Both the position numbers and the translations under genes were made by a program. Shown here piece by piece: positions 17,935 through 56,558 of a stretch of DNA of 64,000 nt. Source of the stretch: Nitrosospira sp. (lineage in GTDB: Bacteria; Pseudomonadota; Gammaproteobacteria; Burkholderiales; Nitrosomonadaceae); contig JACDGV010000011.1 of NCBI GenBank assembly GCA_013821425.1, positions 1 through 64,000 on the forward strand. Direction: 5' to 3'. The notes below the pieces were generated by a model. That model saw only the letters and a list, made by a program, of their open reading frames with translations, ran no database searches and was not told where the DNA came from. How positions within the stretch are numbered: position 1 is the first letter of the stretch; the number at the start of each line of letters is the position of its first letter.

Positions 17935-19869
17935 ATGAACAGAAAGCCGACTGGCTCCGGGCAACTTTCGGGCATGCGTGCGATGGTGGCGGTCAGAGTT
18001 CTCCATCGATCAGCCCAGGCGCAAGACGACTTGATCCGATCCAGAATCGTCCAAAATGACTCATCCCCCAACGGCCTCACCCTCACGCCGTTTGTACAAA
18101 CATCAGCAGGGAACAAAGAGGAAACGAGTAAGGAAAGGACTGCGGTTCAGTCAAGATTTTTAGCCGGCACAGTAACCTCTGTGGTAGGTGGCGCCCGAGC
18201 TATGCGTTGCACCAGCGGCTGGGTAAAAAGTTCAGCCGTGGCCTTTTGGCTCTCGCTGTTTCTAGGTGCAATACGGCCAAGTTGCGTGGGGGCACAAGAG
18301 CAAGTTATTCCACCCGCGTCATCCTCTCAAGTACAACATTTTCCCGTAAAAAAAATACAGGTCGAAGGCAATACCTTGCTTCCCGATCGCGAGCTTGCGG
18401 CACTGATGTCGCATCTTGTTGGGGAGAACAAAACCCTGGGCGACCTCCAGCAAGGCGCCGCGGCGATACAACAAGCCTATCGCAAGGCCGGCTACGGGGG
18501 GGTGATCGCCTTTGTCCCGGAGCAGGAATTGAGCAGTGGCGATATTGTCATCCAGGTAGTGGAGGGCAAGATCGCCAAGATTGAGATTACGGACAATCAG
18601 CTTTATGACGAGACGAACATTCGATACAGCTTGCCGCATATACGAGACGGTGAGACCCCGAACATACGAGGTCTAGACCGGGATATACAGTTGGCGAACG
18701 AAAACCCGGGGAAAGATCTGCGAGTTACGCTTGCCGCCGGTGAAAAACCGGGTGAGATCGATGCAAAGGTCAAAGTAGCAGAGGAGAAATCCATTCGGCT
18801 TCTCCTCGGGCTTGACAGTTCGGGCACCCTTGGAACAAACCGCTTTCGCACCAATATCGGAATTCAGCATTCCAACTTGTGGAATCGCGATCACATCGGT
18901 ACGTTCCAGTTTCAGACCTCGCCCGTCGAACCGAGCAAAGTTCATGTCTTCAGCGTAGGTTACCGGATACCGTTTTACGGCAACTCCGCCGCTCTGGACA
19001 TGTTCTTCGCGCATTCCAATATCAGCAGTGTGTCGGCAACCACCCCTGCTGGCCCGCTTGGTTTTACCGGGAGCGGCGATGTGGGCGGATTCCGGCTTCA
19101 CCGGTACCTTTCCCGCATGGGTGACTACGATCATCGGGTGACATTTGGCTGGGATTGGCGCCACTATAACAACAATTGCTCGCTCGGCGCCTTCGGGTCG
19201 GCGGGGTGCGGCACGGCAGGGGCAGACGTGACGATTCTTCCTCTCAGTTTAGGTTACACCGGCGATTCGCAGGGCCCTAACCTTTCATGGGGATTTAACG
19301 TGACGGCCTCCGGCAATCCCGGGGGCAGCAGCAACCAGGAGTTCAACGCCGCGAGATTTGGAGCCGAAAGAAATTACACCGTCTACCGTTTTGCTGGATT
19401 TACCAACGTTGCGCTCCCAGCAGCTTTTTCCCTGACCGCGCGCATTGCCGCGCAATACAGCCCGGATGCGCTAGTTCCCGGCGAACAGCTAGGAATCGGG
19501 GGTGCAGGTAGCGCGCTTGGCGGGATTATAAGCGTGCGGGGCTATCGTGAAAGGGAGGTCGTTGGCGATTATGGCTCGTTCCTCAATCTGGAGGCTCTCG
19601 GCCCCGATGTCGGCAGGTACATCAATCTCTGGGGGGTTCACCTGCGGCCACTCGTATTCTTCGACGTCGGCTGGGTGGGAAACAACCATCATACACGCTG
19701 CATGATCAATGATACCTCCTGCACGCTGGCGGGAGTTGGGGGAGGCATACGCCTGGGTTACGGAAAACGTTTCTCCGCGCGACTGGATATGGGGCAGGCG
19801 CTCCTGGATGGCAATCAGACGACTGCAAACAGTTCCCGCGGCCACATGGTCGTGAATTTTTCTTTCTGA
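17935..19869 (+). CDS. Two-partner secretion outer-membrane transporter (TpsB, ShlB/FhaC/HecB family)
   Basis: Up to 644 residues. The start is uncertain: the ATG at 18202 gives a protein beginning MRCTSGWVKSSAVAFWLSL with a normal signal peptide, about 555 residues, typical of TpsB; the extra 89 residues from 17935 look non-homologous. A POTRA-type pair (about 115-260) includes KKIQVEGNTLLPDREL and VIQVVEGKIAKIEI; the rest is a 16-strand-type beta-barrel ending in a C-terminal Phe (VVNFSF). The VRGYRE motif of the family is present. It secretes the TpsA protein encoded 7 bases downstream across the outer membrane. Confidence 0.92.
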   Translation: MNRKPTGSGQLSGMRAMVAVRVLHRSAQAQDDLIRSRIVQNDSSPNGLTLTPFVQTSAGNKEETSKERTAVQSRFLAGTVTSVVGGARAMRCTSGWVKSSAVAFWLSLFLGAIRPSCVGAQEQVIPPASSSQVQHFPVKKIQVEGNTLLPDRELAALMSHLVGENKTLGDLQQGAAAIQQAYRKAGYGGVIAFVPEQELSSGDIVIQVVEGKIAKIEITDNQLYDETNIRYSLPHIRDGETPNIRGLDRDIQLANENPGKDLRVTLAAGEKPGEIDAKVKVAEEKSIRLLLGLDSSGTLGTNRFRTNIGIQHSNLWNRDHIGTFQFQTSPVEPSKVHVFSVGYRIPFYGNSAALDMFFAHSNISSVSATTPAGPLGFTGSGDVGGFRLHRYLSRMGDYDHRVTFGWDWRHYNNNCSLGAFGSAGCGTAGADVTILPLSLGYTGDSQGPNLSWGFNVTASGNPGGSSNQEFNAARFGAERNYTVYRFAGFTNVALPAAFSLTARIAAQYSPDALVPGEQLGIGGAGSALGGIISVRGYREREVVGDYGSFLNLEALGPDVGRYINLWGVHLRPLVFFDVGWVGNNHHTRCMINDTSCTLAGVGGGIRLGYGKRFSARLDMGQALLDGNQTTANSSRGHMVVNFSF

Positions 19870-19876: not shown

Positions 19877-22800
19877 ATGGGCAACGCATTGCAAAACATA
19901 AGTCCTTTCTCCCACGTCAGTAAGACCTTCGCGCGCCTCTTTGCCGGCGATACGTGCAAGCGGTACCCGGTATTACGGCAATCCATTCTCTTGATGGGTG
20001 CCTCACTGTTTTTATCATCCGTCCTGGCTCATGCCGACGTGCCCGCCCATTTGCCAACCGACCCGACGGTTGAGCACGGCACCGCCGTTATTCATACCGT
20101 TGGCGACCAGATGACGGTAACAAGTAGCCCAAACGCCATCCTCAACTGGCAGGATTTTTCCATCGGCAGTCATCAGGACGTGTATTTTGAGCAAAACGAC
20201 ATAACCAGCCAGGTGCTGAATCGCGTCACGGGAACCGAGCCCTCGCAGATTCTGGGCAGCCTGGGCAGCAATGGGGGCGTATGGCTGATCAATCCTCACG
20301 GCATATTGTTCGGTCCGACTGCCACTGTTAACGTGGCCGGGCTTGTTGCTTCGACGCTCGATATCTCCAATCTCGATTTTCTTGCCGGGAAATATAACTT
20401 TGTTAACGGTGGCAACGGCAAGGAGCAAGTGACAAATCAGGGGGAGGTGCGCACCTCTTTCGGTGGCCGCGTATGGTTACTGGGTGGACAGGTGCGGAAC
20501 GAAGGCACGATTCAAAGTCCCGGCGGCAATATCGCGCTTGCTGCCGGCAAAAGCCTCGAACTCATCGATTCCGGCGCCCCGAACGTGATTGTGCGTATAG
20601 CCGCGCCGGAGAACCAGATAACCAACCTTGGGAGCCTGGTGGCGGCAAGTGGCGGCAGCGTGGATTTGCACGGCAGCATCGTAAATCAGGAAGGTATCGC
20701 ACGCGCCAATAGTGTAGGTGCTGATGCGACCGGGCGTATTGTACTCAAAGCGAGCCAGGACCTCACTCTGGCAGAGAACAGCGTGACGCAAGCGCACGGC
20801 GGCGAGGTGACAATGGCGGCGGCAACCACTACTTATCTGGCTGGCCTTGTCGATGTCTCCAGGCAACAGGGGGCGGCGGGCAACATCCTACTTAACACTA
20901 GCAAGCTGGAAGGTGTGGCAGGCAGCAGCTTAAATGCAAGCGGCGAGGAGGGGGGGCATATACGGATCGAGGGCAGCGGATTGGTGGACTTTTCCACGAA
21001 ATTGTCAGCAATTGGCGGTTTGAAGGGTGGCATGATTGAAGTCACGGGCGATCAGGTGTATCTGCGCAATGCAGACGTTGACGCTTCCGGCGGTATGCAA
21101 GGCGGAACGGTTCACGTGGGGGGTGGGTGGCAAGGTGGGGGAAATTTGCCGCACGCGCGGCAGGTACTTATCAATACAGGCAGTGAAGTGAAGGCGGACG
21201 GAAACGGTAGCGCGAGTGGCAGTGCCAAGGGCGGCGAGATCGCGGTCTGGTCCACTCTGAGCAGCCAGCACTATGGCCTATTGCAGGCGCGCGATGGGGG
21301 AAGAATCGAGCTATCCTCGCGAGGCACTTTTAGTACTCAGGGCGATATACAGGCGGGAGTAGGCGGGACCTTGCTGTTCGATCCGAAGAATATCAACATC
21401 AGGAACGAAATCCCACCCCAAATAAACGTTTCGCCGGCCGCGGCAAGTCTTCCAGGTATACCAGCGTCATTATTTGGTGAGGATGAAGGCTCTGATACGA
21501 CAATTTTTGCATCAACGATCACCGGGTTATTAAGTGAAGGAACCGCAGTTATCCTGCAAGCAAATAATGACATTCTAGTCACTGCGAATATTATTGTCCC
21601 TAGCACAGAAAACGTAGGAAACCTAACTCTGCAGGCAGGGCGAAGCATCAATCTTAATAGAAATATTACCTACAACAGCGATGGTTCTATAGCGGGGAGA
21701 AATGCTCTCCAGATTAACACCGCCAACCAAAATCTGACGATAGTGGCGGGGGATGCCGGCGCCGTTGCAGGTAATAGGGATGACGGTTTGGCAAGGCTTG
21801 ACATATTTCCAGAGGCTAGCTTGAATGTTGGCACAGGAACTGCAGTTTTAGTAGCGCGGGATGGTGTTGTTTCCAACAGCGGCTCCATTCAAACATCCGG
21901 CGCCGGCCGCTGGCTGATCTATGCGAGAGACCCAGATAGCAGCACAGAGGGTTTTTCCAGCTTCAGCTATAGCAAGCACTATAATCAGCAATTTCTCGGA
22001 GTGGGCAGCGAAACCCCTTCGTATGCCAGAAGCGCCACCAGCGGCAACTGGTTCCTTTATAGCGTGGCACCCATTATTTCTGTGGCGCCCAGTAGTCAGA
22101 CCATGACTTACGGCAGTTCAACTCCTACTACTTTTACGCCTACCTTGAGCGGGTTTATTGATGGGGACACGGCTAATTCGTTACAAGGGGATGCAGATTC
22201 TCCCACTTTTGCCGTTAGCGGCACTCCGGCCTGGGCTGTTGCCGGCCCGAATTCCTCCTCAGGCAATCTGACTGCGGGTGGGCATAACGTGGCTTACACT
22301 GGTGGGCTAACCAGCGATCGCGGGTATCAGTTTGCGGACAATACGAGCATTAGCAATGAACTAACAGTGAGCAGGGCGCCGGTTTTTCCTACCGGGATAA
22401 CCGCGGGTGACAAGATTTACGATGCGACTACCGCGGTGACATTGTCTGGCGGTTTCCTCTCTGGCGTGGTTCCAAGGGACGTTGTCTCATTGTCAGGTGC
22501 AACTGCAGCTTTCAACGACAAAAATGTCGGGAACGATAAGCCCATCAACCTCTCGGCCATCTCCTTCACGGGCGCTGACGCAGGTAATTATGTGGCCGCG
22601 GACCTTCCTGGCGGCCTCGGCAGCAATGGAAATACCGGAGGAGGGCCTCTAACCGCAAGCATTACTTCTGCCGAACTCACCTATCTTGCTGACCAGGCTT
22701 TTCGATTGACGGGGGCGCTGATACAACCTCCTCCTCTCGCTGGTAGAGTTACGGGTTTTATCGGTACGGATAACCAGTTAGACGACACTACTGGGAGTTT

Positions 22801-24088
22801 GTTCTGGGCAACCCCGGCCACCGCCGCTTCGCCCGCAGGAGTATATCCCATTGACGGAACCGGCCTTACAGCGCTTAATTACACCTTCCAGCAAGCTCCC
22901 AGCAACGCTACAGCGCTTACAATTTCTAGCAGAGGATTTGAAAACGATAACCCAACAAGCACCAACCGCGCCATGGCTGGCGCTTTGCCGCTATATGATC
23001 CGGATATCCGTTGCAGGGTCAACGACAGGGCCTCCTTGCCCGATCCCGATTTCGGCATAGTAAGCTTGGCGAGCATGAGCCGAGAGGAGATGCAACAGCT
23101 TGTCGTGGACCGGAAGGAACGCAAGCGTGGGGTCTTTGCTGATGCACTATGTACGCTTGAAGGATATCCAAGCTACGCAGATGTGCCTTCCTGCCGGAGC
23201 TTGGCTGAAGCAGATTCCGGCCAATGTAAGGTTACCAATGCTCAGATCGAGGAATATCTGTCCAGAAAGGAGGCCTTAGCGGAACCACAGCTGCCGCAGG
23301 GTAGAACTACCGAAGCGGCGCCACAGGCTACGAAGCGGAAAGGGGTTACCCGACTCCCGCAAATCGAGCGCAAGTTCACCGTGCTTTTCGGAATCGACCA
23401 ATACTCTGACCCGGCCATTCCAGCGTTGGAGAATGCAATATCCGATGCAGAGGTGGTGGGAACATTGCTTGCCAGCGAGCTGGGCTACGAAGTACGTGTG
23501 GCCAGGAATGCGACGAAAGCAGAAATCGTTCGGGCCATGAACCGGCTTGCGCTGGAAATGCGACCCAACGATAGCGTGGCCATCTACTATGCCGGGCACG
23601 GCTATCTTGACGAGAAAACGGGAAGCGGCTACTGGATTCCAGCAGACGCATCGACAACCGACCCAAGAAGCTGGATATCGAATACTGACATTTCGAGAAT
23701 GTTGTCGCTCATCCGCTCCAATCAGGTGATGATGATTTCCGATAGCTGTTATTCCGGAGCCTTTGCAAAAGAGCAGAATGTATCGTTGGAGGGCAAGTTG
23801 AACCCCGATGAAGTCTTGGTCAAGCGCTCGGTAGTCGTCATGTCGTCTGGAGGCGATGAGCCCGTTGCGGACAGCGGCAGGGAGAACCACTCCATCTTTG
23901 CCTGGTATCTGATGGAAGCCCTGCGCAATGTCGACAATTGGGAGCCTGGAACCAATCTCTTCCAACAAGTTCAGCGCGAGGTCAGGAAGGCGTTTCCGCA
24001 AACGCCGCAATACGGCGGTGTTAAATCAGCAGGGAATGAGGAGGGAACTGATCACCTGTTTGAGTTCAGAGAATTGCAGGCGCGATGA
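19877..24088 (+). CDS. TpsA exoprotein (FHA-like) fused to a C-terminal caspase-like (C14) protease
   Basis: 1403 residues. The long signal peptide ends near residue 53 (VLAHADV). The TPS domain (about 60-300) has the conserved VWLINPHGILFG motif and directs export through the TpsB encoded just upstream. A beta-helical adhesin-like region follows, then an MBG-type repeat (about 735-830, TMTYGSSTPT) and a YDG-type repeat (about 840-915, GDKIYDATT). The C-terminus (about 1170-1395) is a caspase-fold peptidase with the catalytic pair His1241 (YYAGHGYLD) and Cys1291 (SDSCYSGAF), 50 residues apart as usual. So a secreted filament appears to carry an intact-looking cysteine protease. Substrate and whether it cleaves itself are unknown. 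The GAGG of the upstream stop region serves as ribosome-binding site. Confidence 0.9.
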   Translation: MGNALQNISPFSHVSKTFARLFAGDTCKRYPVLRQSILLMGASLFLSSVLAHADVPAHLPTDPTVEHGTAVIHTVGDQMTVTSSPNAILNWQDFSIGSHQDVYFEQNDITSQVLNRVTGTEPSQILGSLGSNGGVWLINPHGILFGPTATVNVAGLVASTLDISNLDFLAGKYNFVNGGNGKEQVTNQGEVRTSFGGRVWLLGGQVRNEGTIQSPGGNIALAAGKSLELIDSGAPNVIVRIAAPENQITNLGSLVAASGGSVDLHGSIVNQEGIARANSVGADATGRIVLKASQDLTLAENSVTQAHGGEVTMAAATTTYLAGLVDVSRQQGAAGNILLNTSKLEGVAGSSLNASGEEGGHIRIEGSGLVDFSTKLSAIGGLKGGMIEVTGDQVYLRNADVDASGGMQGGTVHVGGGWQGGGNLPHARQVLINTGSEVKADGNGSASGSAKGGEIAVWSTLSSQHYGLLQARDGGRIELSSRGTFSTQGDIQAGVGGTLLFDPKNINIRNEIPPQINVSPAAASLPGIPASLFGEDEGSDTTIFASTITGLLSEGTAVILQANNDILVTANIIVPSTENVGNLTLQAGRSINLNRNITYNSDGSIAGRNALQINTANQNLTIVAGDAGAVAGNRDDGLARLDIFPEASLNVGTGTAVLVARDGVVSNSGSIQTSGAGRWLIYARDPDSSTEGFSSFSYSKHYNQQFLGVGSETPSYARSATSGNWFLYSVAPIISVAPSSQTMTYGSSTPTTFTPTLSGFIDGDTANSLQGDADSPTFAVSGTPAWAVAGPNSSSGNLTAGGHNVAYTGGLTSDRGYQFADNTSISNELTVSRAPVFPTGITAGDKIYDATTAVTLSGGFLSGVVPRDVVSLSGATAAFNDKNVGNDKPINLSAISFTGADAGNYVAADLPGGLGSNGNTGGGPLTASITSAELTYLADQAFRLTGALIQPPPLAGRVTGFIGTDNQLDDTTGSLFWATPATAASPAGVYPIDGTGLTALNYTFQQAPSNATALTISSRGFENDNPTSTNRAMAGALPLYDPDIRCRVNDRASLPDPDFGIVSLASMSREEMQQLVVDRKERKRGVFADALCTLEGYPSYADVPSCRSLAEADSGQCKVTNAQIEEYLSRKEALAEPQLPQGRTTEAAPQATKRKGVTRLPQIERKFTVLFGIDQYSDPAIPALENAISDAEVVGTLLASELGYEVRVARNATKAEIVRAMNRLALEMRPNDSVAIYYAGHGYLDEKTGSGYWIPADASTTDPRSWISNTDISRMLSLIRSNQVMMISDSCYSGAFAKEQNVSLEGKLNPDEVLVKRSVVVMSSGGDEPVADSGRENHSIFAWYLMEALRNVDNWEPGTNLFQQVQREVRKAFPQTPQYGGVKSAGNEEGTDHLFEFRELQAR

Positions 24089-24313: not shown

Positions 24314-25102
24314 TTACTCTGCAGCAGAGGCACTCCACGCCTTTTGTAATTCTGCGAACGCAATCTTCACAAAACCGTAGCTGTCTTCAACAGAAAGGGC
24401 GCTATTGAGCAATAACAGAGCAAGTTGCTCCAGCTTCTGCGTGCCGTGGAATTCCGATTTGATAATTTCTGTTTTGTAGGAGCGAACCACTTCCTGGATC
24501 GCTTTCTCGTGCATTTTAGACAAATCGATAAAAAGAATATCTGCAATCTGCCCGGGCCGTCCGTGTCTTATGGGCTGATAAAGCGTAATCAGATATGGAC
24601 CAGGATTATCGAATTTACCCGGGAAAGCGGTCGATAAAGCGGTGAGCAGTTCCATGGATAGCTTGTCGTTGGGAGAAGTTGGATTCTGCCCTTCACGTGC
24701 TGAGACCGGTATGAGGAATAAATTAAGCAGGGATTTATCTGCCATCATCGTACTATTTTTCGCAGTCGAAGACGTTACCGCGGTGATCAGGGTGTTATAA
24801 CGGTGCCAAGTCGCCTTGTGAGACTTGTCTCTACCGATAAGAACATATGTATAAGTGGCGTATCCTTCTTCCTCCTCCCCATAGCTTGGTAAGGTAGCCC
24901 ATACGTGGGCGGTGGGGAAGGATCGCGTTCTAACAGGAAAGCCGCGGGTCCTCGGGATTTCCCTTGTTCCCGGCTTTGACGCTTGCTCTTGCTTTTCGAC
25001 CCCCGTTTTTTGTTGGGTGGTGCTACATGAGGAGAGAGCGAGTGCGAGCAATACAATTATCCCGGGACCAAATAAAGTTAAGTGGCTAACTCTGGTTCGC
25101 AT
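24314..25102 (-). CDS. Hypothetical lipoprotein
   Basis: 262 residues. The signal peptide ends in a lipobox-like LSSC (Cys near 26). A basic Thr/Arg-rich linker leads to a folded domain (about 65-262) with motifs YATYTYVLIGR and GPYLITLYQP, not matching a family I can name. The N-terminus overlaps by 17 bases the end of a small membrane protein gene on the same strand, suggesting co-translation. The content of the block (caspase-type exoprotein, lipoprotein, OmpA-like, kinase with DUF4384) suggests a cell-envelope role. Confidence 0.7.
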   Translation of the reverse strand: MRTRVSHLTLFGPGIIVLLALALSSCSTTQQKTGVEKQEQASKPGTREIPRTRGFPVRTRSFPTAHVWATLPSYGEEEEGYATYTYVLIGRDKSHKATWHRYNTLITAVTSSTAKNSTMMADKSLLNLFLIPVSAREGQNPTSPNDKLSMELLTALSTAFPGKFDNPGPYLITLYQPIRHGRPGQIADILFIDLSKMHEKAIQEVVRSYKTEIIKSEFHGTQKLEQLALLLLNSALSVEDSYGFVKIAFAELQKAWSASAAE

Positions 25103-25301: not shown

Positions 25302-25487
25302 TTTATTCTCCCTCGTGTCAAGCTACTGATTACATAGAGAAAGTTTACTTAAGGACGGTGCGATGCCGCACATAGTGCGAAGGAACTATCCATTACTATA
25401 TTAGCACACGCAATGTCAATTGCTGGTTAAGAAAGATTGACCCAGGGGAACCATTGTGCACTGGGCTAACCGATACTGGAGGTGTCT

Positions 25488-26018
25488 GTGAAAATAGCGG
25501 TATTTGCTTTGATGACTTTGGGTGGCTTTACGATTCCTTTGGCAGCGGGGCAGCCAGAGGTGCTTCAAGGGTCCGGGATCAATGAGGAAGCATTGCGTAA
25601 TGCGCTTGTCCCAAAAGATGGTATTCGTACTAGAAGTTTCATGCCTACTTCGAATCAACCTTGCCCGGAAGAAATAGCGATTGCAAATATTTTGATTACC
25701 TTTCCTACAGGCTCGGCTGATCTGACCCCACTCGGGCAGGAGCAAGCCGATATGATCGCCAATGTTTTAAAAGAGGACGCGCTAAAGAACTGCTCTTTCA
25801 CAATAGAGGGCCATGCAGATCCGCGCGGAGGGGCGGAATTCAACAGATGGCTATCGGAAGCGCGGGCGCGAGCGCTCGTGGAACATCTCAGGAAGTATAT
25901 TGGCGTAGAGAGGTTGACTGCGGTCGGCAAGGGAGCTCAGGAGCTTTGGAATAAACTAGACCCGACCCACCCTAACAACCGCCGTGTAACGGTAGTGAGA
26001 AAATCCAGGCAGGAATAG
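25488..26018 (+). CDS. OmpA-family peptidoglycan-binding protein
   Basis: About 176 residues. The GTG at 25488 is favoured because GGAGG sits 5 bases upstream; a GTG at 25482 would add two residues. A signal peptide (VKIAVFALMTLGGFTIPLAA) precedes a linker and an OmpA C-terminal domain (about 70-170) with IEGHADPRGGAEFNRWLSEA and NNRRVTVV, the peptidoglycan-binding signature. There is no N-terminal beta-barrel or lipobox, so it is probably periplasmic. Its end lies 29 bases from the convergent kinase gene. Confidence 0.88.
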   Translation: MKIAVFALMTLGGFTIPLAAGQPEVLQGSGINEEALRNALVPKDGIRTRSFMPTSNQPCPEEIAIANILITFPTGSADLTPLGQEQADMIANVLKEDALKNCSFTIEGHADPRGGAEFNRWLSEARARALVEHLRKYIGVERLTAVGKGAQELWNKLDPTHPNNRRVTVVRKSRQE

Positions 26019-26047: not shown

Positions 26048-27751
26048 TCAGTAGATTTCCTCTATAGAGAATACGGCAGCTCCGTAACAGAGGGCAGGGG
26101 TCGAGCCAGAGCAAACGCCTTTACCAATGAATAACGGCGTGGGATCGGTGAGAATTTGAAACCATAGCTCCCGATTCTGTGGCGCCGCCTGATCCAGTGT
26201 TGAATCTGCAAGGGGATTGACGGGTTCCAAACCGGCGATCGAAAGGTTTCGTGGTTGATCGGAAACAATCACAGCTAAATGATTCGTACCCGGCGGTCCT
26301 TGCGCAATCATTTCCCATTTCGGCAGCTCTAGTTGTTCTCCTGCTTCAACGTAGTTTTGCTTGTCTGGAGCGTTGGGAACAAGGAGAAAGAAGTCTGAAT
26401 TATTTGTTCCCAACATCAGTACATAAGCATAGCCTGGCTTTGCAGAACGAATACTAAAGCGAAGGGGGTCTTTACCAATACGTGCCTGTGCTTTATCAGT
26501 AGAAACGGTCAAGGCATGGTTGCGATTGCGCCCTTCAAATATTTCGTCCAGTGCCTTTAATGGACCATACTCTTTTTCGGCATGTCGAAGGGTGCCAGGC
26601 AGTTGACCAGAAGTTATAGCGATCGGTACGGTCGAGTCGGCAATTGGCTCTTCACGCGCGAGAAAAATCCCCAGTCCGAGGACCGCCACGACCACAATGC
26701 TCGCGCCCAGAAAGAGGCCTCTAGCCCGCTTTGTTGAAGCGACCGATTCGATGGGTGGTGGCGAAGTAGTCGATGGTTGACCCTTCAATCCAAGCCGCGC
26801 ACGAAATTCTTCAGTATTCTGCGGCCGATTTTCGGGCCTTACCGCAAGCGCCGAATCAATCGCTTTAAGGAATTCATTGCTGTATCGCCCCTTGCCAGTT
26901 TTAGTCAGAGGCTCCTGCGAATCAGATATTATACGGGCGACGGATGGAAGGGGCGCCTCGCGCTCGATTGCATAATATATTACCCCTCCGAGTGCGTAGA
27001 TATCGGTCCACGTTCCTTGTTTCATTGTATGGTCATTCGCATACTGCTCCACCGGCGCGTAGCCCGGCTTGAGAATTACGGTAAGAGATTGCGTCTTATC
27101 ACTGATTACTCGTCGCGCTGCCCCGAAATCCAGCAGAAGAGGACGGCAATCAGGAAGAATTAATATATTGTCCGGCGCGATATCGCGATGAAGGCAGCCG
27201 CCTGCATGGACGACTGCCAATGCTTCGAGCAGTTGCGCTAACAGCCACTTTAACCACCCCTCATCGGGGGTTTCACTCATGAGGCTCAGTTTTTCCTCTA
27301 GTGTTACCCCTTCGTAAAAAGGCATGGCCATATACGCGGTCCCATTACTCTCCCAAAAGCGGTACACCTTCAAGAGGGAAGGGTGATCGAAGTGGGCGAG
27401 GAGCCGCGCTTCCTTTACAAAGCTGCTCAGGCCTACTTGAAATGTTTCCGCGTATCGGGTGGATTTCACTATTACTGTCGTATCCTCACTTCTTGTAGCG
27501 AGGGAAACAGGCATATATTCCTTGACTGCAACCTCGCGATGAAGTGAGTGGTCGTATGCGAGATAAACGATCCCGAAGCCGCCTTCACCAATAAAGCCTA
27601 CGATTTCGAATTCCTGCAATTGGGTCCCAAGAGGCAGCACGTTCTGACTCATCGGTTTCCCGTTCTGTCCGGTCGGCACCGACTCTGGCGGTAGTAGTTT
27701 GGTCTTCCTGGCGGGAGAGCCCTTATGAGACGGCGGCAGAGCGCTATTCAT
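26048..27751 (-). CDS. Transmembrane Ser/Thr protein kinase with a DUF4384 domain
   Basis: 567 residues. Hanks-type kinase domain (about 48-310): glycine loop GEGGFGIV, invariant Lys in VAVKEY, catalytic loop LHRDIAPDN and metal-binding DFG in LLLDFGAAR. The catalytic loop has Ala where most kinases have Lys (HRDxKxxN), a variant seen in a bacterial subgroup. A membrane helix (about 343-366, LFLGASIVVVAVLGLGIFLA) leads to a periplasmic DUF4384 domain (about 430-520). DUF4384 is often encoded near bacterial caspase proteins and envelope factors, matching the caspase-bearing TpsA nearby. Alternative start at MSQNVLPLG, 33 codons in. Confidence 0.88.
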   Translation of the reverse strand: MNSALPPSHKGSPARKTKLLPPESVPTGQNGKPMSQNVLPLGTQLQEFEIVGFIGEGGFGIVYLAYDHSLHREVAVKEYMPVSLATRSEDTTVIVKSTRYAETFQVGLSSFVKEARLLAHFDHPSLLKVYRFWESNGTAYMAMPFYEGVTLEEKLSLMSETPDEGWLKWLLAQLLEALAVVHAGGCLHRDIAPDNILILPDCRPLLLDFGAARRVISDKTQSLTVILKPGYAPVEQYANDHTMKQGTWTDIYALGGVIYYAIEREAPLPSVARIISDSQEPLTKTGKGRYSNEFLKAIDSALAVRPENRPQNTEEFRARLGLKGQPSTTSPPPIESVASTKRARGLFLGASIVVVAVLGLGIFLAREEPIADSTVPIAITSGQLPGTLRHAEKEYGPLKALDEIFEGRNRNHALTVSTDKAQARIGKDPLRFSIRSAKPGYAYVLMLGTNNSDFFLLVPNAPDKQNYVEAGEQLELPKWEMIAQGPPGTNHLAVIVSDQPRNLSIAGLEPVNPLADSTLDQAAPQNRELWFQILTDPTPLFIGKGVCSGSTPALCYGAAVFSIEEIY

Positions 27752-33069: not shown

Positions 33070-36000
33070 TTAACAGTGTATCGTCCCTTCGATCACAACG
33101 ACTGCTTGGCTCAATGGTCGCCGGCCGGTTTTCTCCGCTACCACATTTCCCGGTGAATTTTCCGGGTTAGGGAGCGCTGCTGTTGGAGCATGAATCGTCC
33201 AGCCTGCTCGAGCAAGATCTTGGATTGTGTTCCATGTCGTGCGATCTTCTCGCAAGAACTTTTCCTCATCACCATATAGCCGAGTCCAATAAATCTCTGC
33301 TCGCCTTAGCACTACCTGGCCGGTTCCACGTTGGGCTGCGCAAATCTGCCTGAGCATCCCAACGAGCGCATCCGAGCAACTCGAGCATGCACTGTAGTTA
33401 AAATTCCGCATCTCGATCGACTCTATATATTTTAAGGCCTCCTTGGCAAGCTCGGACTCGAATACTGCTGTTGTATGCGCTTCCGCATGGCTACCCCCCG
33501 TTTTTCTCGTTGGACTGCTGTTCCATGTCAGCAATTGGATTTCATTTTCCTGTACATTCACTACCCCTCCGCCCGTTGGAATAGTGGGATCAAGCCCACC
33601 CGAGGGAAGCTCTCTCGGGAGGATGCTGGAGAGATTGGTGATAGGGTGATTTGAAACGAGGTGAAGGCGAGTTGCCGATTGCACTGTGCGTCCCGGCGGA
33701 GCACGTCCTCGTCCCAGCGTCCTTCTCAACTCGCCCAGTGGAAAGTACTCATCGTTCGCGCGAAAGCTGACGAGGATGCTCTCATCGGATTGCGATTGCG
33801 TCCGTATGTCGTCGGCACCACGCGCGACGATCCTGCGCTTTACACGCTCAGTAGCGGCAGGAACCTGATTTAGCGGCAGACCTGCCGCCACCTCCTCAGC
33901 CATCATTTGAGAAGCCGCCACTTTCAGTTGCTCAGGATTAGAGTCAACGAAGGTCTCCTCAAAAACCTCGCACAATGGTTCCAGAATCTCAGCCAAGCTT
34001 TGTTCGACCGCTTCCGTCTCCTCGTCTGCTTGAGTAAATTCTTGACCTGCTTGCGGATCATTAGGTTCACGCTCCGCTTGTTCTTTTTCCTGCACGGCTT
34101 CTTGGGCATCTCGCTGCGTATTGCCAAGCGCTTGACGAGCAGAAGTAAGCAAACGCTGTGCTTCGGTGCGCCTCTCCTCAGGAACCGCTTCCAATCTTTC
34201 CTGCCAGTCATCAAGCTTAGCTGTAACCTCTTCCGGGGAACTTGCCATCATGACCTTGGCTGAAGTACCTTGGACATTGATCCAAAGCCGGTGGCTTTCC
34301 CCCGCCGCGCTAAAGCTGATTGTTTTGCCCACTTCGCTATCGCCTTCCTGTCGTTGATCGTTCTCCTCGCCTTGCTCTCCCCCAATCCCAAGTGTCCGCA
34401 GCAATCCTCGCGCCCGTTCCGCGAGCCATCCGATGACCTGGTCCAGAATGCCTTCTATCCAATTCTGCATACCTTCGATCGTTTCCTTGATCTTGTTGGG
34501 GAGATCACCGAGGCCGATATAATCGGCAAGAAAATCGATCACCGGTCCAATTAAACGGGACAGGGCGGTTTCAACTGCATTGGCCATTGGGCCAATATTG
34601 CCTGCCACAAGGTTGGCAATACCACCCACTACAGTCTCAACAAGAGTGAAGATGCGGGCCGCGTTCTCGAAAATCCACTTGAGGACGCGATAGACCGCCT
34701 CGAGCGCCTGAAGAATGGCTCCAGCGGGGTTAAACAGGGCAATGATCCGGACTGACACCTGTGTAATGAGGGCTTCCACCAGGAAACTCTTGGCTGCTTC
34801 CAAAACCTGATCCAGAATCTGCCGCGGATCGAGCCGATCCTTGATCATTTCAAAGATGCCCTGCGGGCCTTGTTCAATCAGGCTCGACACCAGTTCGTAG
34901 GCGCGTTCGATCAAGGCTACATTTTCTTCTCCGATATGCTTCGCCAGGAGACGCCTGATACGGGTCCAGGTGATACCCATCAGTTCCAGGAAGAAGGAAA
35001 TGATGCTCTTGAGCGAAAAATCCGGGGGAATAGTTATACCGGCAGCCGCCAATCCAGCTGTTAACCAATCGAGAAGCCCTCCGATTAAGTGCGTTCCAAC
35101 ATTGCTAAAGAATTGCTGAAACCCCTGGCCAAGTGCGGTCAGCAGGTGGCCGGCAAACCCTACGGGATCTTCGGCAATATCGCTAATGACAGACTGGATG
35201 CGTGCTACAAGTGCCCAGAAGGATGCGGGGGGGATACCCAGGAGTTCGAGTAAACCCTCGATGATGAACTTCGCAGGGTCTTCCACGAAACGACCGACGG
35301 CATCGACAATACGGCCGATGATGCCCCCCGCCGCTTGTCGCAGAGAGTAAATCTGTTCACGCACTTCTTGTACCGATTGCGCTGCCCGGTTGGCCATATC
35401 CCGGTTAAAGTCATCCCGAGTCTGGATCGCCCGATCGTGCAAGCTATCGAGCTGTTCCCCAAATCGTGCCTGCTCTCCAGCCGCCCATTCCTGAAGTTCA
35501 GCGGGTAAATTGGAGAACAGTTCGCCAATATCGGTCCGGGCATCTTCTATCAAGCCCTCGCAGGTCACAATGACGCCGTTGACATTACTGGAGATTTCCC
35601 GGATCAGGTCACATACGCCGTCCCCAAACTCGTGTTCGGCGGCTTCGTACTCGTCCGTGACCCAGTCCGGCAGACCGGTAACGTACTCCACAACTTCAAG
35701 GACGGCGCCTTTTGCGCCGGAATAACGCTCGTCGATCCACTCTTTGACCCGATGCAATCGTTGCTTGAAGCGCTCGGAAAGGACGGCTACTCCCGTTTCC
35801 CATTGAGACATGGCGGTGCGTGACAGAGGCTCTAGCAGATCATTGACCTGCGTCTGTGCCGCATTGAAAATTCCCTGAGCCTCGGCACCAATTCGGGCCC
35901 GCATCTGTTCCTCGGATCCAACCATGTTTTGTTGGCCCGCCCCTATTTGGCCGATCGTGCTTGCGCGTGCCGACGCAAGCGCTTCTAATGCCCTTTGCTG

Positions 36001-37983
36001 CAACCCGATCATGTCCGTGCCGGCTCGGTCGCGAGCCGCCATTTGTTCCGCCATCACCTCGGCAGGATCGCGTTCCGCCACACTTTCCAGTTCACCTTGT
36101 GCAGCCTGCGCTTCAGCAATGGGACCACTTTGCACCAACTGTGCGGGCTCTGAGTTCATCCCGGAATCTTGCATACGTTGCTGATTCGCTTGCACGTCGG
36201 CATCAAGGGAGATGTTTTCTTCGGGGACGGGCTCTGGAACCGCAGTCTCGGCATTGATAGGTGGTGCTGCTACCTTTGCTGCGGGTGGTTCTATTTCCTG
36301 GGCTTCTCTAGTTGTCTGGCCCTCTGGAGGCATTTCCAACTGATCGTAGCTGGACTGCACCCGAGTCGTGTCACTTTCAATCGCATCATTTAGCTGCTCA
36401 CCTGACTGTCTGGCCATTTCTTCAGGATCAGCCTCAACCAGAGCCTCTTCATCTGGGGGACGCTTATTGCGAATGACTTCGCGAATTCGCTCACAAAGAT
36501 CTTCTATTTCAGGGCTTGGAGGCTCGCGTTGCTCCAGCGCAGCAACGAGATTTCCTGCTGCACGGGCGTCTACTTCGGCTTCAGGCTCCTCCACAGCTTC
36601 TCTCGCTTCAGCAGCTGTGGTTTCCGCAGGCGGAAGATCTGTTTCCGTTGCGGTTGCTTCCTCGGCATTGTCTTGTACCTGGTGCAAACGTGAGCGGTCA
36701 TCTTCTGAAATATCTGACGAGGGCTCAGGCAACAGGAGCTGGGGGCCGCCGGTATCAGTTACTCTGCTGCTTGGTCCCGCGGGAAAGGCTCCCGCTCCGG
36801 TTTCAGATTCACGTCCTGAAGGCCGTGTTTGAGGAGTGGCGGTACGCGGGGAAGAAGGCGTGCCAGTCTCATCGGAAGCAGGGGAAACAGCAGCGTGCGT
36901 TGGGGGTTGAGCTGCTGTAGGTAATGCATTAGAGCCGGGTTGAGGTGTAACGGCCTCAGACGGACGCCTGCTTGCTGGCCTTGCGTATCGCTGAAGGGAA
37001 GAGCTGGAAATGGATTTCTTTTCTTCCCTATTAGCTGTCGCGTCCCCCGTGGGGCTTAATCGAGCCGGCAAGTCTATATTGATTGAGTGAGGGGCACGCT
37101 TCGGTTGTAATGGCATGCCTCCCGTCTGCTGAACGACATGCGTCAATTCATGCGCCGTAAGCTCCAAATTAGTAGGACTACTTCCCGCACCAAAGTAAAC
37201 ATCAGAGCCATGAGTAAAGGCCTGGGCACCAACGTCCCGATTCATCTTGATAGCATCGCTGCCGGTGTGGACGCGCACATGACTGAAATCCACCCCAAAC
37301 CTTGGTTCCATATAGGAACGCACGGGATCAGGTAACGGGCTACCTCCACCCTTGCTCCGACCGAGACGGGACTCAACATCATCCCCAGCCTCAAAACTGC
37401 CGTTTATTGAGTCGCCGGATTTGGCCTGGATCGGTTCTGTTTCTTCTTCGTCGCTGGTTGTTTGTCTTTGAAAGGGAAGTGCGGCGGACTTATTGAAGAA
37501 CTTCGCCTGAAGTAACTCGTCTTTGTCCTCTTCCCTGTCGTGGTCTTCTTCTTTCTCTGCCCCTTGTTCCATTTCCCGCTGTACGAACGGCGTGATTGAG
37601 GCAGCAAGAGGCAGGGGCTTACTTTGCACAAGATGGGCCTGGTTCGGCTCTCCTTCTACTGCACGCGATTGCTGGACAGAGGCCAGCGCCACTGAATCGG
37701 GCATGCTCACCACTTGCCGAGCGACGCGGTCTGCTTCCTGCTCGTATTGATCATCCGCAGCCCCAACGGTCAGTTTTGGCTGAAGACCGATAATCTTGCC
37801 CTCAGGCGTGAGGTGTTTGGCTTGAATCAGCTGCGCTACGCGTCGATTGCCTAAGGTACGCTGCAATTGAAGGATGGGATTAGGTCCGCCCTGAAATGAC
37901 CGGGTGGACTCGGGACGAGGCTCACGGCGCTCGATTCGCTGCTTTGCTTTCTCTGGTGACTCTGTTTTCGGCTGCTGAGACAC
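33070..37983 (-). CDS. Giant DUF4157 eCIS cargo protein with a C-terminal deaminase-like toxin domain
   Basis: 1637 residues. Leader (about 36-95: LQRTLGNRRVAQLIQAK, YEQEADRVA), acidic linker, DUF4157 domain (about 215-290) with zincin motif HELTH at 278-282, a long Pro/Glu/Ala-rich disordered part (about 300-640), then a long helical, partly hydrophobic central region (about 640-1240: e.g. GLLDWLTAGLAAAGITI, LVETVVGGIANLVAG) that could help cross membranes. The last about 150 residues hold His1499-Ala-Glu1501 and Cys1533-x-x-Cys1536, the zinc-site signature H-x-E ... C-x-x-C of nucleic-acid/nucleotide deaminases, as in bacterial polymorphic-toxin deaminases. The target base is unknown. It starts 15 bases after the leader-only gene, inside the eCIS train. 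Confidence 0.85.
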   Translation of the reverse strand: MSQQPKTESPEKAKQRIERREPRPESTRSFQGGPNPILQLQRTLGNRRVAQLIQAKHLTPEGKIIGLQPKLTVGAADDQYEQEADRVARQVVSMPDSVALASVQQSRAVEGEPNQAHLVQSKPLPLAASITPFVQREMEQGAEKEEDHDREEDKDELLQAKFFNKSAALPFQRQTTSDEEETEPIQAKSGDSINGSFEAGDDVESRLGRSKGGGSPLPDPVRSYMEPRFGVDFSHVRVHTGSDAIKMNRDVGAQAFTHGSDVYFGAGSSPTNLELTAHELTHVVQQTGGMPLQPKRAPHSINIDLPARLSPTGDATANREEKKSISSSSLQRYARPASRRPSEAVTPQPGSNALPTAAQPPTHAAVSPASDETGTPSSPRTATPQTRPSGRESETGAGAFPAGPSSRVTDTGGPQLLLPEPSSDISEDDRSRLHQVQDNAEEATATETDLPPAETTAAEAREAVEEPEAEVDARAAGNLVAALEQREPPSPEIEDLCERIREVIRNKRPPDEEALVEADPEEMARQSGEQLNDAIESDTTRVQSSYDQLEMPPEGQTTREAQEIEPPAAKVAAPPINAETAVPEPVPEENISLDADVQANQQRMQDSGMNSEPAQLVQSGPIAEAQAAQGELESVAERDPAEVMAEQMAARDRAGTDMIGLQQRALEALASARASTIGQIGAGQQNMVGSEEQMRARIGAEAQGIFNAAQTQVNDLLEPLSRTAMSQWETGVAVLSERFKQRLHRVKEWIDERYSGAKGAVLEVVEYVTGLPDWVTDEYEAAEHEFGDGVCDLIREISSNVNGVIVTCEGLIEDARTDIGELFSNLPAELQEWAAGEQARFGEQLDSLHDRAIQTRDDFNRDMANRAAQSVQEVREQIYSLRQAAGGIIGRIVDAVGRFVEDPAKFIIEGLLELLGIPPASFWALVARIQSVISDIAEDPVGFAGHLLTALGQGFQQFFSNVGTHLIGGLLDWLTAGLAAAGITIPPDFSLKSIISFFLELMGITWTRIRRLLAKHIGEENVALIERAYELVSSLIEQGPQGIFEMIKDRLDPRQILDQVLEAAKSFLVEALITQVSVRIIALFNPAGAILQALEAVYRVLKWIFENAARIFTLVETVVGGIANLVAGNIGPMANAVETALSRLIGPVIDFLADYIGLGDLPNKIKETIEGMQNWIEGILDQVIGWLAERARGLLRTLGIGGEQGEENDQRQEGDSEVGKTISFSAAGESHRLWINVQGTSAKVMMASSPEEVTAKLDDWQERLEAVPEERRTEAQRLLTSARQALGNTQRDAQEAVQEKEQAEREPNDPQAGQEFTQADEETEAVEQSLAEILEPLCEVFEETFVDSNPEQLKVAASQMMAEEVAAGLPLNQVPAATERVKRRIVARGADDIRTQSQSDESILVSFRANDEYFPLGELRRTLGRGRAPPGRTVQSATRLHLVSNHPITNLSSILPRELPSGGLDPTIPTGGGVVNVQENEIQLLTWNSSPTRKTGGSHAEAHTTAVFESELAKEALKYIESIEMRNFNYSACSSCSDALVGMLRQICAAQRGTGQVVLRRAEIYWTRLYGDEEKFLREDRTTWNTIQDLARAGWTIHAPTAALPNPENSPGNVVAEKTGRRPLSQAVVVIEGTIHC

Positions 37984-37998
37984 GAGCGTCTTTTAAAA

Positions 37999-38614
37999 CT
38001 ACTGCTCGTTGGGATCTGATGCAGATTTTTCTTCCTTGCCTGCATAGCACGTGGCGCAGGTTCGCTGAAGTGAGGGACGTGGGCTAGATGCTGCCGACTC
38101 GTCATCTTCCTCGACGGATTGCCGCAGAAGAGAGCCGTTGCTCGTCTCGACTACAGGCTTCGCTTGAACAGTCATCTCTTTCTCTTCTGATTCTTGGTTG
38201 ATTTCTATTTGCCGTTGGGCAAACGGGGTGATTGAGATGGCCAGAGGCTTAGATTGCAACGCCTCATTCTTGTCTTCTTCTGGTGAAATCGCTCGTTGCG
38301 CTGTCGCTGTATTCGAAGACACCGCGTCGGGCATGCTAATTACTTGGCAGGCTACCTGATCGGCTTCCTGCTCATATTGATCGTCCACAGCCCCAACGGT
38401 GAGCTTGGGCTGAAGGCGGACAATCTTGCCCTCCGGCGTGAGGCGCTTGGCTTGAATTAACTCTGCTACACGGCGGTTGCCCAATGCGCGTTGTAAGTGG
38501 AAGATAGGAGAAGGGGAACCCTCGTGAGAGAAACGGGCAGGAACTGGGGATGACCTGCCGCGCGCGATTTGCTGATTTATTCTCTCGGACGGATCGGTAA
38601 AAAATTGCTGGGCC
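37999..38614 (-). CDS. Leader-only DUF4157-type protein lacking the zincin domain
   Basis: 204 residues from the ATG at 38614, preceded by GGAGGG. It matches the N-terminus of the other DUF4157 proteins (MAQQFFTDPSERINQQ, LQRALGNRRVAELIQAKRLT, DQYEQEADQVACQV, SMPDA) and the acidic linker up to a CATCYAG motif, then stops where the DUF4157 zinc domain would begin. The next gene starts 15 bases later. It may be a truncated cargo gene or a free-standing copy of the loading leader. A longer frame to 38838 lacks homology and overlaps the FHA remnant. Confidence 0.75.
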
Positions 38615-38644
38615 ATAACTGTTCCCTCCCTCCGTGCAATGGCG

Positions 38645-39618
38645 TTAGGCAGTGTGGTATAACACCCTGGATTTAAGGCTCGTCTTTTTCCCCCAGGCGG
38701 TTTGGGCTCCCGCAAATTCAGCAAATCGCTGGGATCCCGCACTGTATATGATGGAGCAATGCCGACGGCTGACATCGCTGTTGTCGCTAAACATGAGACG
38801 TCCCTCTCCGCCTGAGGTGCGGCCCAAGACCAATCCACCGGCTGGAATAGGAATCGATGCTCCGGTATATTCTCCGCTGATCCCTTTGATGACTGGTCCC
38901 TGCTTTACAGGGCTGGATGCAGCTGGTTGATAGGATTTACTAGAGCTAGGTCGCAACCCATTCGCCTGACCGGATATCTTGGCGTGTTGACCGCGGCGCA
39001 AAAAAAGCAAACCTAACACTAATGCGAGTCCGGCTGTGCCCGCCCCGGTCCAGACCAGGGTGGAGTTCTTGTCGATCCATGTCCGCGGTTTATCTACTAT
39101 GCGTGGCAGTGGCAGCCCGAGGTCTTTTAACACAGGGATAACCACAGCAATATCCTGCGCCCAGCCGATTCCTGATGCTTGTGTCGAAACAAAGCTGTTG
39201 ATGCCAAGTACTTCTCCATATTGGTTGTAGAGCGGGCCACCGGAATTACCTGCGCTGATCGCCGCATCTGTCTCAATAACAGCGACGCCCTTCCACCCCT
39301 TTCCCTTTGCTGTCTCGGTGACGTCTGGCGATTCCCCGCCTAACTTGCTCACGATGCCCTTTTTCAGCGTCGGGACATATCTTGTCGAGGTCACGCATTT
39401 CCAGATGCTCCGGGAAATTCTGCCGAATAGACGTTGTCATTGATCAGAGCCGAGCTACTTGTGGCAAAGGTAACGCTCGGTCTCTCCGCGAGCGGCCGAA
39501 CAAGTTTCAGGATAGCCACATCCATGCCGGTTTCGCGCGCCCTTTCGTCGCTCTTTGATGATGTCCATACGATATTGGATACATCCACCCTGATCGGGGA
39601 CTGCCCCTCCTTGCCCAC
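38645..39618 (-). pseudogene. Truncated, frameshifted trypsin-like protease with FHA domain
   Basis: Two frames. The first (39391-39618) holds the Asp part of a serine protease (GMDVAILKLVRPL) and ends in PGASGNA at a TGA. The second starts at once from a GTG at 39394 with VPTLKKGIVSKLGG and contains the nucleophile motif AAISAGNSGGPLYN, a membrane helix (VWTGAGTAGLALVLGLLFL) and most of an FHA domain (VLGRTSGG, SDVSRRHCSI). One missing base explains the break. The N-terminal part with the catalytic His is absent, replaced by the end of the AAA+ gene, and the FHA end is degenerate. So it cannot be an active protease. Confidence 0.75.
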
Positions 39619-39636
39619 GTATATGATTGCCAGCTT

Positions 39637-41859: not shown

Positions 41860-41897
41860 GATTCGTCCTGGTCGATTTTCCCGGCTTGAAACGGCAA

Positions 41898-42875
41898 TTA
41901 GTGGGATATCTCCACCGCTATCAGGGAGACACTGCAATAGCCTGTGCTCCTGATTTCCACGGATAGCGTGCTGGATTCGGCGTCAAGATGCCCTTCGGCT
42001 ATCTCATACGTCTGGTCGTATGGGCCACCCGATATTTCCTGTGTTAGCAGTTTATCGGCATCCTCTTTGCCGACGTGCTTTTTGCCGGCAGGATTCCAGC
42101 CCCCCCTGATCAATGCGAGCGTGACCTTCTTGTCATTGGCCTCCCCCGCGATGCGCAGACGATGAACCCGCGTTACACCCGGCGGGAGCGAAATGGCCAT
42201 GGTTCCCCCCGCACCCTTGGTGTTGGGCGTTCCGTCGTCGTTCTTCTTGTGCGATCTTGCTTCCGTAGTACCCACCCGGAAGGGGGGCTGAGCGTTTTCC
42301 TGGTCGTGCGGAATCTGGATCGGGCGAAACGGTACCCGCAGCCACCCCTTGCGCAAGCTGGGAGCCAGTATTTCCGCATTCACCGAACCGGGCGAAAGGG
42401 GAGTATGCAATTGACGCCGGCTGGCGGTGCTGATCGATTCCGGTTTAAGTTTTCCCCGGCTGTCGAGCTGTACTGTTGCAAGGGTCACCGCGGCTTCTTC
42501 CGTCCCTGTGGAGGCGGCTAAAATTCCATAGCACTCAATCCGAGGGCGGTCTTTGGAAGGTTGCTCGGTTTCGTAGCTCGCCGTGATTTGCAGCAGTGAG
42601 GAAGGTGGGAAGGCCGATAATTCGAGTGTTTCCGCTTGACCGATGGCGATTGCGCGGCCCTTGCCGTCAACGGCAAAGCCGGGGCCTATGCTCAGCGATG
42701 AATCCCCCGCCGCGGTTACCTCAAGCCCGCGCACGACTCCCCAGCCGTGCAGGTTCAGGTTGTGGCGCGCAAGTTCACCGATATGATATTTCTGTTCATC
42801 GATAAAGTCGTCTTTGAGCAGCAATTGTCCCTGGAAATATGCGGGCTTTTTGCCGATAAGTTGTTTTTTACGCAT
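41898..42875 (-). CDS. eCIS-associated 'GQLL' protein, possible baseplate or fibre component
   Basis: 325 residues. The N-terminus (YFQGQLLLKDDFIDEQKYHI, HNLNLHGWGVVRGLEV) matches a family common in eCIS and related tail-like loci, with a conserved first 60 residues and a variable beta-rich remainder. Its precise role is not established; attachment to the baseplate or fibre is likely from position between tail protein I and the ATPase. The start ATG follows the stop of the 45-residue ORF without a gap, with GGGAG as ribosome-binding site. Confidence 0.75.
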   Translation of the reverse strand: MRKKQLIGKKPAYFQGQLLLKDDFIDEQKYHIGELARHNLNLHGWGVVRGLEVTAAGDSSLSIGPGFAVDGKGRAIAIGQAETLELSAFPPSSLLQITASYETEQPSKDRPRIECYGILAASTGTEEAAVTLATVQLDSRGKLKPESISTASRRQLHTPLSPGSVNAEILAPSLRKGWLRVPFRPIQIPHDQENAQPPFRVGTTEARSHKKNDDGTPNTKGAGGTMAISLPPGVTRVHRLRIAGEANDKKVTLALIRGGWNPAGKKHVGKEDADKLLTQEISGGPYDQTYEIAEGHLDAESSTLSVEIRSTGYCSVSLIAVEISH

Positions 42876-43013
42876 TTAGATTCTCCCTTGCGGGTATTTT
42901 TCCCGATCCAGCATCATTTTCATCCTCATCATTCCTTTAGAAGCGGCTCTGCCAGGGATCGGCAGATAGCCTCGCGTGGTAATTAACGCGACGTCAAACT
43001 GTATATCTGCCAT
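42876..43013 (-). CDS. Small 45-residue protein in the eCIS train
   Basis: Starts MADIQFDVALITTRGYLPIP and ends in a basic Met-rich tail (MMRMKMMLDREKYPQGRI). It has a good GGGAG ribosome-binding site, begins 20 bases inside the end of the tail-I gene, and its TAA abuts the ATG of the next gene. This tight two-sided coupling supports a real gene despite the length. No family recognised. Confidence 0.65.
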   Translation of the reverse strand: MADIQFDVALITTRGYLPIPGRAASKGMMRMKMMLDREKYPQGRI

Positions 43014-44863: not shown

Positions 44864-44951
44864 GGGAACTCTCCATGGGGAGTGCGTTCCGACTGACGCG
44901 ATAGCGCGCCAAGCGCACTTCGACTCATGCACAAGCGTTCGGCGCCTGAGG

Positions 44952-48373: not shown

Positions 48374-48438
48374 AATTTTGCCTCGCTGACCTTTTTCCGA
48401 TGCTCAACTATCGAAACGTGTGGAATCCATCTTTTGTA

Positions 48439-50156: not shown

Positions 50157-50172
50157 CGCAATGTTTACCTTT

Positions 50173-53705: not shown

Positions 53706-53744
53706 ATCGTCTTAATGAGTTTATTTCAGATTATGATGCGATCT

Positions 53745-55175: not shown

Positions 55176-55192
55176 TACCTCCTAAATTATCG

Positions 55193-56527: not shown

Positions 56528-56558
56528 TAGCGTCCTGGATGTCTAAAAAACAGAGGGA

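Follow-up and report, generated by a model that had tools for sequence, protein, structure and literature searches.

In two-partner secretion (TPS), the TPS part of an exoprotein (TpsA) is exported onto the cell surface by an outer-membrane transporter (TpsB). Among the type Vb exoproteins, HMW1 and HxuA have their C-terminus locked inside the TpsB pore by a disulfide loop, and CdrA has a periplasmic tail under LapG control, as described in the accessible part of a review (PMC5422565). Here we analyze a stretch of 64,000 nucleotides from Nitrosospira sp. (contig JACDGV010000011.1, positions 1 to 64,000; hereafter the window), in which a TpsA exoprotein ends in a caspase. This protein shares with HMW1, HxuA and CdrA the TPS domain, the TpsB partner and a proposed disulfide-based retention of the C-terminus, but whereas the periplasmic C-terminal part of those proteins is small, in the window the cysteine pair is followed by an entire caspase domain. 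With the bacterial orthocaspases and metacaspases of family C14 it has in common the His-Cys dyad, the Asp-Ser-Cys motif and profile matches to metacaspase-4 and MALT1, and it differs from them in that its caspase is fused to a TPS filament.

Two further groups of systems are close enough to be compared. The PpkA/PppA/Fha pathway of type VI secretion systems (T6SS), including TssW-PpkA-Fha of Acidovorax citrulli, resembles what we find in relatives of the window, whose T6SS clusters encode a kinase, a PP2C phosphatase and an FHA protein, and the likeness extends to a partner on the outer-membrane side. In contrast to that pathway, the partner here is a TPS-caspase filament and the kinase carries a DUF4384 domain; the T6SS clusters of three relatives (G012, G021 and G005; genomes are referred to by G numbers and loci by L numbers) lack the DUF4384 kinase. 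Polymorphic toxins with a caspase are likewise exported proteins with the caspase at the C-terminus, but the C-terminus of the window protein is conserved and no pretoxin domain was found in it. The routes given for Tox-Caspase in the accessible part of the polymorphic toxin study (PMC3482391) are the type II, VI and VII secretion systems (T2SS, T6SS and T7SS) and PVC, and the type V secretion system (T5SS) is not among them. The strings 'hemagglutin' and 'haemagg' are absent from the main text of a 2012 metacaspase survey (PMC3501461), and among the matches listed from the open-licence PMC literature, judged by titles and the starts of abstracts, we found no report of a TPS-caspase-kinase module. 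The module is more interesting than an earlier note on this DNA had suggested, because it comes with a linked kinase and is set beside a T6SS or an extracellular contractile injection system (eCIS).

A two-partner exoprotein with a C-terminal caspase

The TpsA-caspase gene (19877..24088, forward strand, as are all features of this protein and its transporter) encodes 1403 amino acids (aa) in a single frame with zero internal stops. The TPS secretion domain (residues 75-284, 20099..20728) matches Pfam PF05860 (E 2.1e-27), NCBIfam TIGR01901, filamentous haemagglutinin N-terminal domain (E 4.7e-23), and the PDB chain 2odl_A, 'Adhesin' (E 2.1e-46). Pfam further recognizes YDG (residues 835-908, E 6e-18) and MBG_2 in two stretches (best at 934-1010, E 1.4e-12), together at 22379..22906, and the caspase Peptidase_C14 (residues 1166-1379, 23372..24013, E 4.6e-24), which is the sole C14 match in the window genome at E <= 0.001. 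His1241 is encoded at 23597-23599 and Cys1291 at 23747-23749, with Asp1289 two residues ahead of the cysteine. TpsB (Pfam POTRA_2 and ShlB) is encoded at 17935..19869 and ends 7 bases before the TpsA start; an alternative start at 18202 is perhaps the real one, judging the signal peptide by eye. The N-terminus of TpsA is an extended hydrophobic leader, by eye, and Sec export is predicted. With its N-terminal TPS domain and a TpsB partner alongside, the protein is a TPS exoprotein, and the complete caspase domain is genuinely fused to it, an arrangement that is conserved. The fusion with both catalytic residues, and the transporter directly upstream, had been read correctly in the earlier note; its picture of the YDG and MBG repeats as a long extended display does not agree with a Pfam-found YDG/MBG part of only ~180 residues. 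In a scan of genome contigs, two Okeania loci also match the TPS part.

The PDB profile matches of the caspase domain are MALT1 and metacaspase-4, the Asp-Ser-Cys motif aligns with metacaspase-4, and the His-Cys dyad lies within a p20-type domain as in C14 peptidases. His1241, Asp1289 and Cys1291 are invariant in all six sequences of an alignment of the window protein with four other fused proteins and a separate form (A1), as well as across all 30 labels of a wider caspase alignment (31 rows, the label G055 standing for two proteins of which the second is displayed). Loss of the catalytic residues in homologues, which according to the earlier note would speak against the prediction, is therefore not what the two alignments contain; since all three residues are invariant, the caspase looks active. 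Over the C-terminus the window protein is 50-60% identical to the four other fused proteins in A1. The Asp of the Asp-Ser-Cys motif presumably has a role in the choice of Arg or Lys. Orthocaspases are described as cleaving behind positive residues in the accessible part of PMC6426788.

The linker ahead of the caspase contains a conserved cysteine pair, Cys1106-X10-Cys1117 (23192..23227), a proposed disulfide plug. The pair is kept in all six A1 sequences, the separate form included, and is seen in the linker+caspase rows of the wider alignment (in G337b the second position is gapped and another Cys is nearby), while six other C14 rows (G117, G362x, G059, G058, G022 and G048) do not have it. 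Its spacing differs in G337 (1503/1510) and G250 (1793/1803). The 16 fused proteins span 1269 to 2340 aa, and nine of them have no cysteines beyond the pair and the catalytic one. The pair resembles the disulfide plug of HMW1; because a plug-like pair precedes it, the caspase should, by analogy with HMW1 and HxuA, stay in the periplasm.

Distribution and phylogeny

All counts of relatives include the genome of the window. A query consisting of linker and caspase matched 14 of 61 genomes at E 0.001, and a profile of A1 at E 1e-30 matched 17/399 genomes of the order, 14/125 of the family and 39/369 of the class; most of the class matches, at only 109-211 bits, are probably ordinary C14 proteins. 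Within the family, linker+caspase exceeds 400 bits in 13 of 125 genomes, and these were taken as TpsA-caspases, to the exclusion of G434 (184 bits) and of second matches in G362 and G474 (175-190 bits). PF05860 lies in the same open frame as the caspase in eight of the 13, and in G450, G474 and G476 the alignment includes the N-terminal part of the window protein. The search for co-occurrence of TPS and C14 domains that the earlier note had proposed places PF05860 and the caspase in one frame in 10 of 15 genomes checked. That note had also considered that the C-terminal part might be a separate frame in relatives; this holds for more distant relatives only, where linker and caspase form proteins of 349 aa (G055), 441 aa (G218) and 351 aa (G740). 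In a tree of 29 caspase modules, which leaves out G048 and the second G055 protein, the 13 family sequences group together (support 93/95), as do the three separate forms (99/98). In both G218 and G740 the gene for the separate caspase adjoins one for a small putative lipoprotein (L072 16586-17437 and L088 4584-5477); the two lipoproteins look alike by eye, and this is perhaps a different caspase-lipoprotein pair.

Among plasmids, 48 records match the C-terminal query, and four of the 10 listed matches, all from Azospirillum, sit in a protein annotated as filamentous haemagglutinin. These 'filamentous hemagglutinin N-terminal domain-containing protein' sequences share with the window protein the TPS annotation and a C-terminal caspase (45-47% caspase identity). 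At the Azospirillum loci L114-L117 the protein is flanked by ParA and homogentisate dioxygenase genes.

Conserved gene neighborhoods

Two further genes lie near TpsA-caspase in the window. The first (25482..26018, forward strand) encodes an OmpA-like peptidoglycan-binding protein (Pfam) with an apparent signal peptide, by eye, and the second (26048..27751, reverse strand) a Ser/Thr protein kinase (Pfam) with one transmembrane segment, by eye, and a presumably periplasmic DUF4384 domain (~26252-26479). An OmpA-like gene is found near TpsA-caspase also in G014, G024, G036, G362, G459, G485, G487, G456, G500 and G051. Reference proteins for the neighborhoods were first labeled by eye, and Pfam later confirmed the T6SS, FHA, PP2C, kinase, OmpA and main eCIS parts.

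In five genomes of the family (G014, G024, G362, G485 and G500) and in one of another family of the same order (G051), TpsB/TpsA-caspase is located within a T6SS cluster or at its end, and these six clusters also hold an FHA protein, a PP2C phosphatase, an OmpA-like protein and the DUF4384 kinase, that is, the membrane kinase, phosphatase and FHA protein characteristic of T6SS threonine phosphorylation. In G459 the T6SS is on another contig, which ends at the kinase, with the gene order of G362. In G476 a run of FHA-PP2C-OmpA-kinase-TagF-TssM-TssL-TssK-TssJ occupies one contig and TpsB/TpsA a second, and VipB is part of a divergent T6SS on a third. G474 has no VipB; its kinase, OmpA and PP2C genes are clustered on a contig of 48,656 bases, of which the 20,000 inspected contain no T6SS gene, and TpsB/TpsA is on another contig. 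G036, also without VipB, has an eCIS 4 kb upstream, an OmpA gene and a PP2C fragment. VipB is absent from G450, G456 and G487, and the 12, 40 and 24 kb inspected in them contain no T6SS genes. The contigs of G410 and G241 stop at the locus, and VipB is encoded away from it in G250 and G410. In the window genome, searches for VipB and T6SS_FHA_C gave no match, and hence no T6SS threonine phosphorylation set of this type was found in it.

Comparison of T6SS clusters within the genus of the window shows which genes vary together. From a 371-aa gene to TssJ, considering genes of at least 100 aa, G012 and G021 have the same content as G014 short of four genes, namely TpsB, TpsA-caspase, OmpA and the DUF4384 kinase; in G012 an additional frame of 203 aa overlaps tss genes. 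The four missing genes sit at two sites, TpsB/TpsA-caspase at one and OmpA with the kinase at the other. The T6SS cluster of G005 is without the same four genes and three others, and in G477, a family member that has a T6SS but no TpsA-caspase, the OmpA gene is likewise absent between PP2C and TagF. The window retains all four in a genome without VipB.

Co-occurrence across the family agrees with this picture. The C-terminal half of the kinase is found (E 1e-12) in 9 of 125 genomes, all among the 13 with TpsA-caspase and in 0/112 others (Fisher p 4.7e-11), as recovered with a profile built from six such kinases that would miss distant ones. VipB accompanies the kinase in 7/9 genomes (p 3.3e-7) and TpsA-caspase in 7/13 (p 1.4e-5); all these p values treat the genomes as independent, and since genomes of one family are related, they overstate that independence. 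Of the 12 family genomes with VipB, the seven with TpsA-caspase carry the kinase and the five without it do not. As a control we considered nine non-caspase TPS genes from the same 15 genomes. None is near an injection system, judged by coordinates (on another contig or at least 660 kb away, contig abutment being undecidable), whereas the caspase-bearing ones adjoin such systems in 8/10 cases; the genomes were chosen and the counts entered by hand, G459 was scored as not adjacent (contig end), and the eCIS search covered the genomes other than G051 and G337. A coincidental T6SS setting is weakened both by these nine genes and by the collinear clusters without the four genes. The set of TpsB, TpsA-caspase, OmpA and kinase is supported by computed evidence; how it works we infer below.

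An eCIS was also considered as the constant partner and rejected, as it is not enriched with TpsA-caspase (7/13 versus 42/112, p 0.2). Of the seven genomes with both, the window (G000) and G036 have the eCIS adjoining, G014, G024 and G487 have it apart by coordinates, and in G459 and G476 adjacency is undecidable, the TpsA contigs being only 12 and 8 kb. In several family relatives a large protein is encoded directly downstream of TpsA-caspase (L061 8278-9882, L077 7328-9211 and L025 8264-11290), the one at L025 with RTX and Big_5 domains.

A possible surface module and its alternatives

A caspase with a regulatory role in the periplasm is suggested by features that the earlier note did not mention: its kinase and OmpA partners, the nearby contractile injection system and the cysteine pair. 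We propose that the four genes form a surface module in which a periplasmic caspase is tied to a surface filament and works with the DUF4384 kinase, a reading to which we assign a probability of roughly 0.4. TpsB would export the TPS and filament part onto the surface until the Cys-X10-Cys loop forms a disulfide plug that, by analogy with HMW1 and HxuA, would halt translocation and leave the caspase in the periplasm, where by predicted topology it would meet the OmpA-like protein and the DUF4384 domain of the kinase. Contact with the filament, or a pull on it, may then alter or free the caspase. Its target, presumably cleaved after Arg or Lys, would be a partner in the periplasm, with the DUF4384 domain and the OmpA-like protein as the likeliest candidates. 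The kinase could in turn phosphorylate an FHA-type regulator controlling the contractile injection system; the step from kinase to Fha is known for other T6SSs. A. citrulli PpkA phosphorylates Fha and promotes T6SS assembly (PMC12607579, in part), 23 of the 316 accessory domains counted in cyanobacterial orthocaspases are DUF4384 (accessible part of PMC8283722), and DUF4384 often occurs together with N-terminal kinase domains (accessible part of PMC6426788). Because DUF4384 is found in orthocaspases and with kinase domains, a relation between caspase and DUF4384 is plausible, and because of these precedents and that of A. citrulli a contact or tension signal passing from filament to caspase, kinase and injection system is the version we favor. 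As a complete chain, with a plug-held filament, a periplasmic metacaspase acting on the DUF4384 kinase and the arming of an injection system from outside in (a T6SS; in the window perhaps the eCIS), it is doubtful. In the window the last step is a guess, because the sole FHA proteins found lie beyond the eCIS, on the far side from the module. Contact sensing and the decision to fire are open questions for contractile injection systems in most species, and an outside filament with a membrane caspase and a co-distributed kinase would represent a concrete and testable sensor. If the proposal is true, it would also assign a bacterial caspase to a particular compartment and provide it with partners and a probable substrate, information that is missing for most orthocaspases.

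Several observations weigh against a four-gene surface module, besides the relatedness of the genomes. Five T6SS genomes of the family manage without it, and the kinase match is absent from four of the 13 caspase genomes (G036, G450, G456 and G487); G036 has an open TpsA-caspase frame of 1280 aa, which favors some role of the protein that is independent of the kinase. G456 and G487 have the C-terminal frame only (357 and 784 aa), perhaps cut or broken. Outside the family, the stretches inspected in G337, G250 and G625 contain neither a T6SS nor such a kinase, and the Azospirillum proteins differ from that of the window in having no cysteine pair and no annotated TpsB, kinase or T6SS gene within 15 kb, in an incomplete gene table. 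The caspase tree is consistent with vertical inheritance in the family and repeated losses. The cysteine pair is ~290 residues from the C-terminus and is thus not an extreme C-terminal anchor of the HMW1/HxuA type, and seven of the 16 fused proteins carry extra cysteines, confined to the first 40 residues in G014 and G476 and not so in the other five, including that of the window (27, 1046 and 1092). AlphaFold2 without an alignment gave a pLDDT of 37.5.

The strongest rival, itself rather unlikely in our judgment, is that the periplasmic caspase is a built-in release protease that cuts its own linker in cis and sheds the filament, with the kinase regulating shedding. The plug-like cysteine pair directly ahead of the caspase suits such a role, as does a basic, LPQIERK-like stretch where the linker meets the caspase, a possible Arg/Lys self-cleavage site. 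There is a precedent in CdrA and LapG (PMC5422565, in part), and caspases have been considered as domains by which large surface proteins might process themselves in the accessible part of PMC3482391. Shedding needs neither kinase nor T6SS, which matches G036 and G337, but taken alone it leaves unexplained both the restriction of the DUF4384 kinase to caspase genomes and the placement in T6SS clusters.

It is improbable that the whole protein, caspase included, is exported as an effector that cuts proteins of a neighbor, prey or host, as the earlier note had suggested along with action after uptake by a neighbor. The TPS route handles large proteins, the adjoining injection systems are weapons, some polymorphic toxin systems are predicted to use a C-terminal caspase as the toxin (PMC3482391, in part), and 30 of 671 metacaspase sequences were classed as extracellular in the accessible part of the 2012 survey (PMC3501461). 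However, the C-terminus is conserved and not variable, the plug-like cysteine pair would argue for retention, HINT is the sole protease in the T5SS row of the polymorphic toxin study (PMC3482391, as far as accessible), and no immunity-like partner was noticed, though no dedicated search was made. A CdiA-type contact-dependent inhibition toxin was rejected, as Pfam gave no VENN or DUF637 pretoxin match at E up to 1.

Least probable of all is hitch-hiking, with TpsB/TpsA-caspase sitting where the gene content of T6SS and eCIS loci varies and the linkage having no functional meaning: distant fusions that have no such linkage in the stretches inspected, the lack of eCIS enrichment and vertical descent within the family would suit it, but the T6SS cluster varies in concert at two separate sites, the same genes are retained where VipB is gone (the window and G474), and the other TPS genes of the same genomes are away from injection systems (0/9 versus 8/10).

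Other features of the window

Between TpsA-caspase and the OmpA-like gene, a 262-aa putative lipoprotein with zero Pfam matches (24314..25102, reverse strand) is a further candidate partner. A short basic stretch resembling RTRSF occurs in it as well as ahead of the OmpA domain in most OmpA-like partners, and may be an Arg-specific cleavage site or a mere common motif. Anti-phage defense was considered for the locus and rejected: with PADLOC the caspase matched only weakly, as did the OmpA-like protein (to ZorB), and the strong matches were to defense kinases (mad6 and PD-T4-6) and involved the kinase domain alone, which presumably reflects general kinase similarity.

The eCIS adjoins the module, beginning 9 kb downstream (33070..59321, reverse strand), and comprises sheath, tube, baseplate J, Pvc16, an AAA ATPase and an eCIS_core (DUF4157) protein (Pfam), together with genes that we take to be LysM, Afp11 and similar components. 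A second eCIS_core (DUF4157) protein is encoded at 13846-15834, across the TpsB/TpsA pair from the eCIS, and a DUF4280 protein at 12138-12527. Beside the eCIS, at 59748..64000 on the forward strand, are genes for a VWA-FHA protein, a PP2C phosphatase, a second FHA protein and a kinase that runs off the window, a set that may be a phosphorylation switch of the eCIS.

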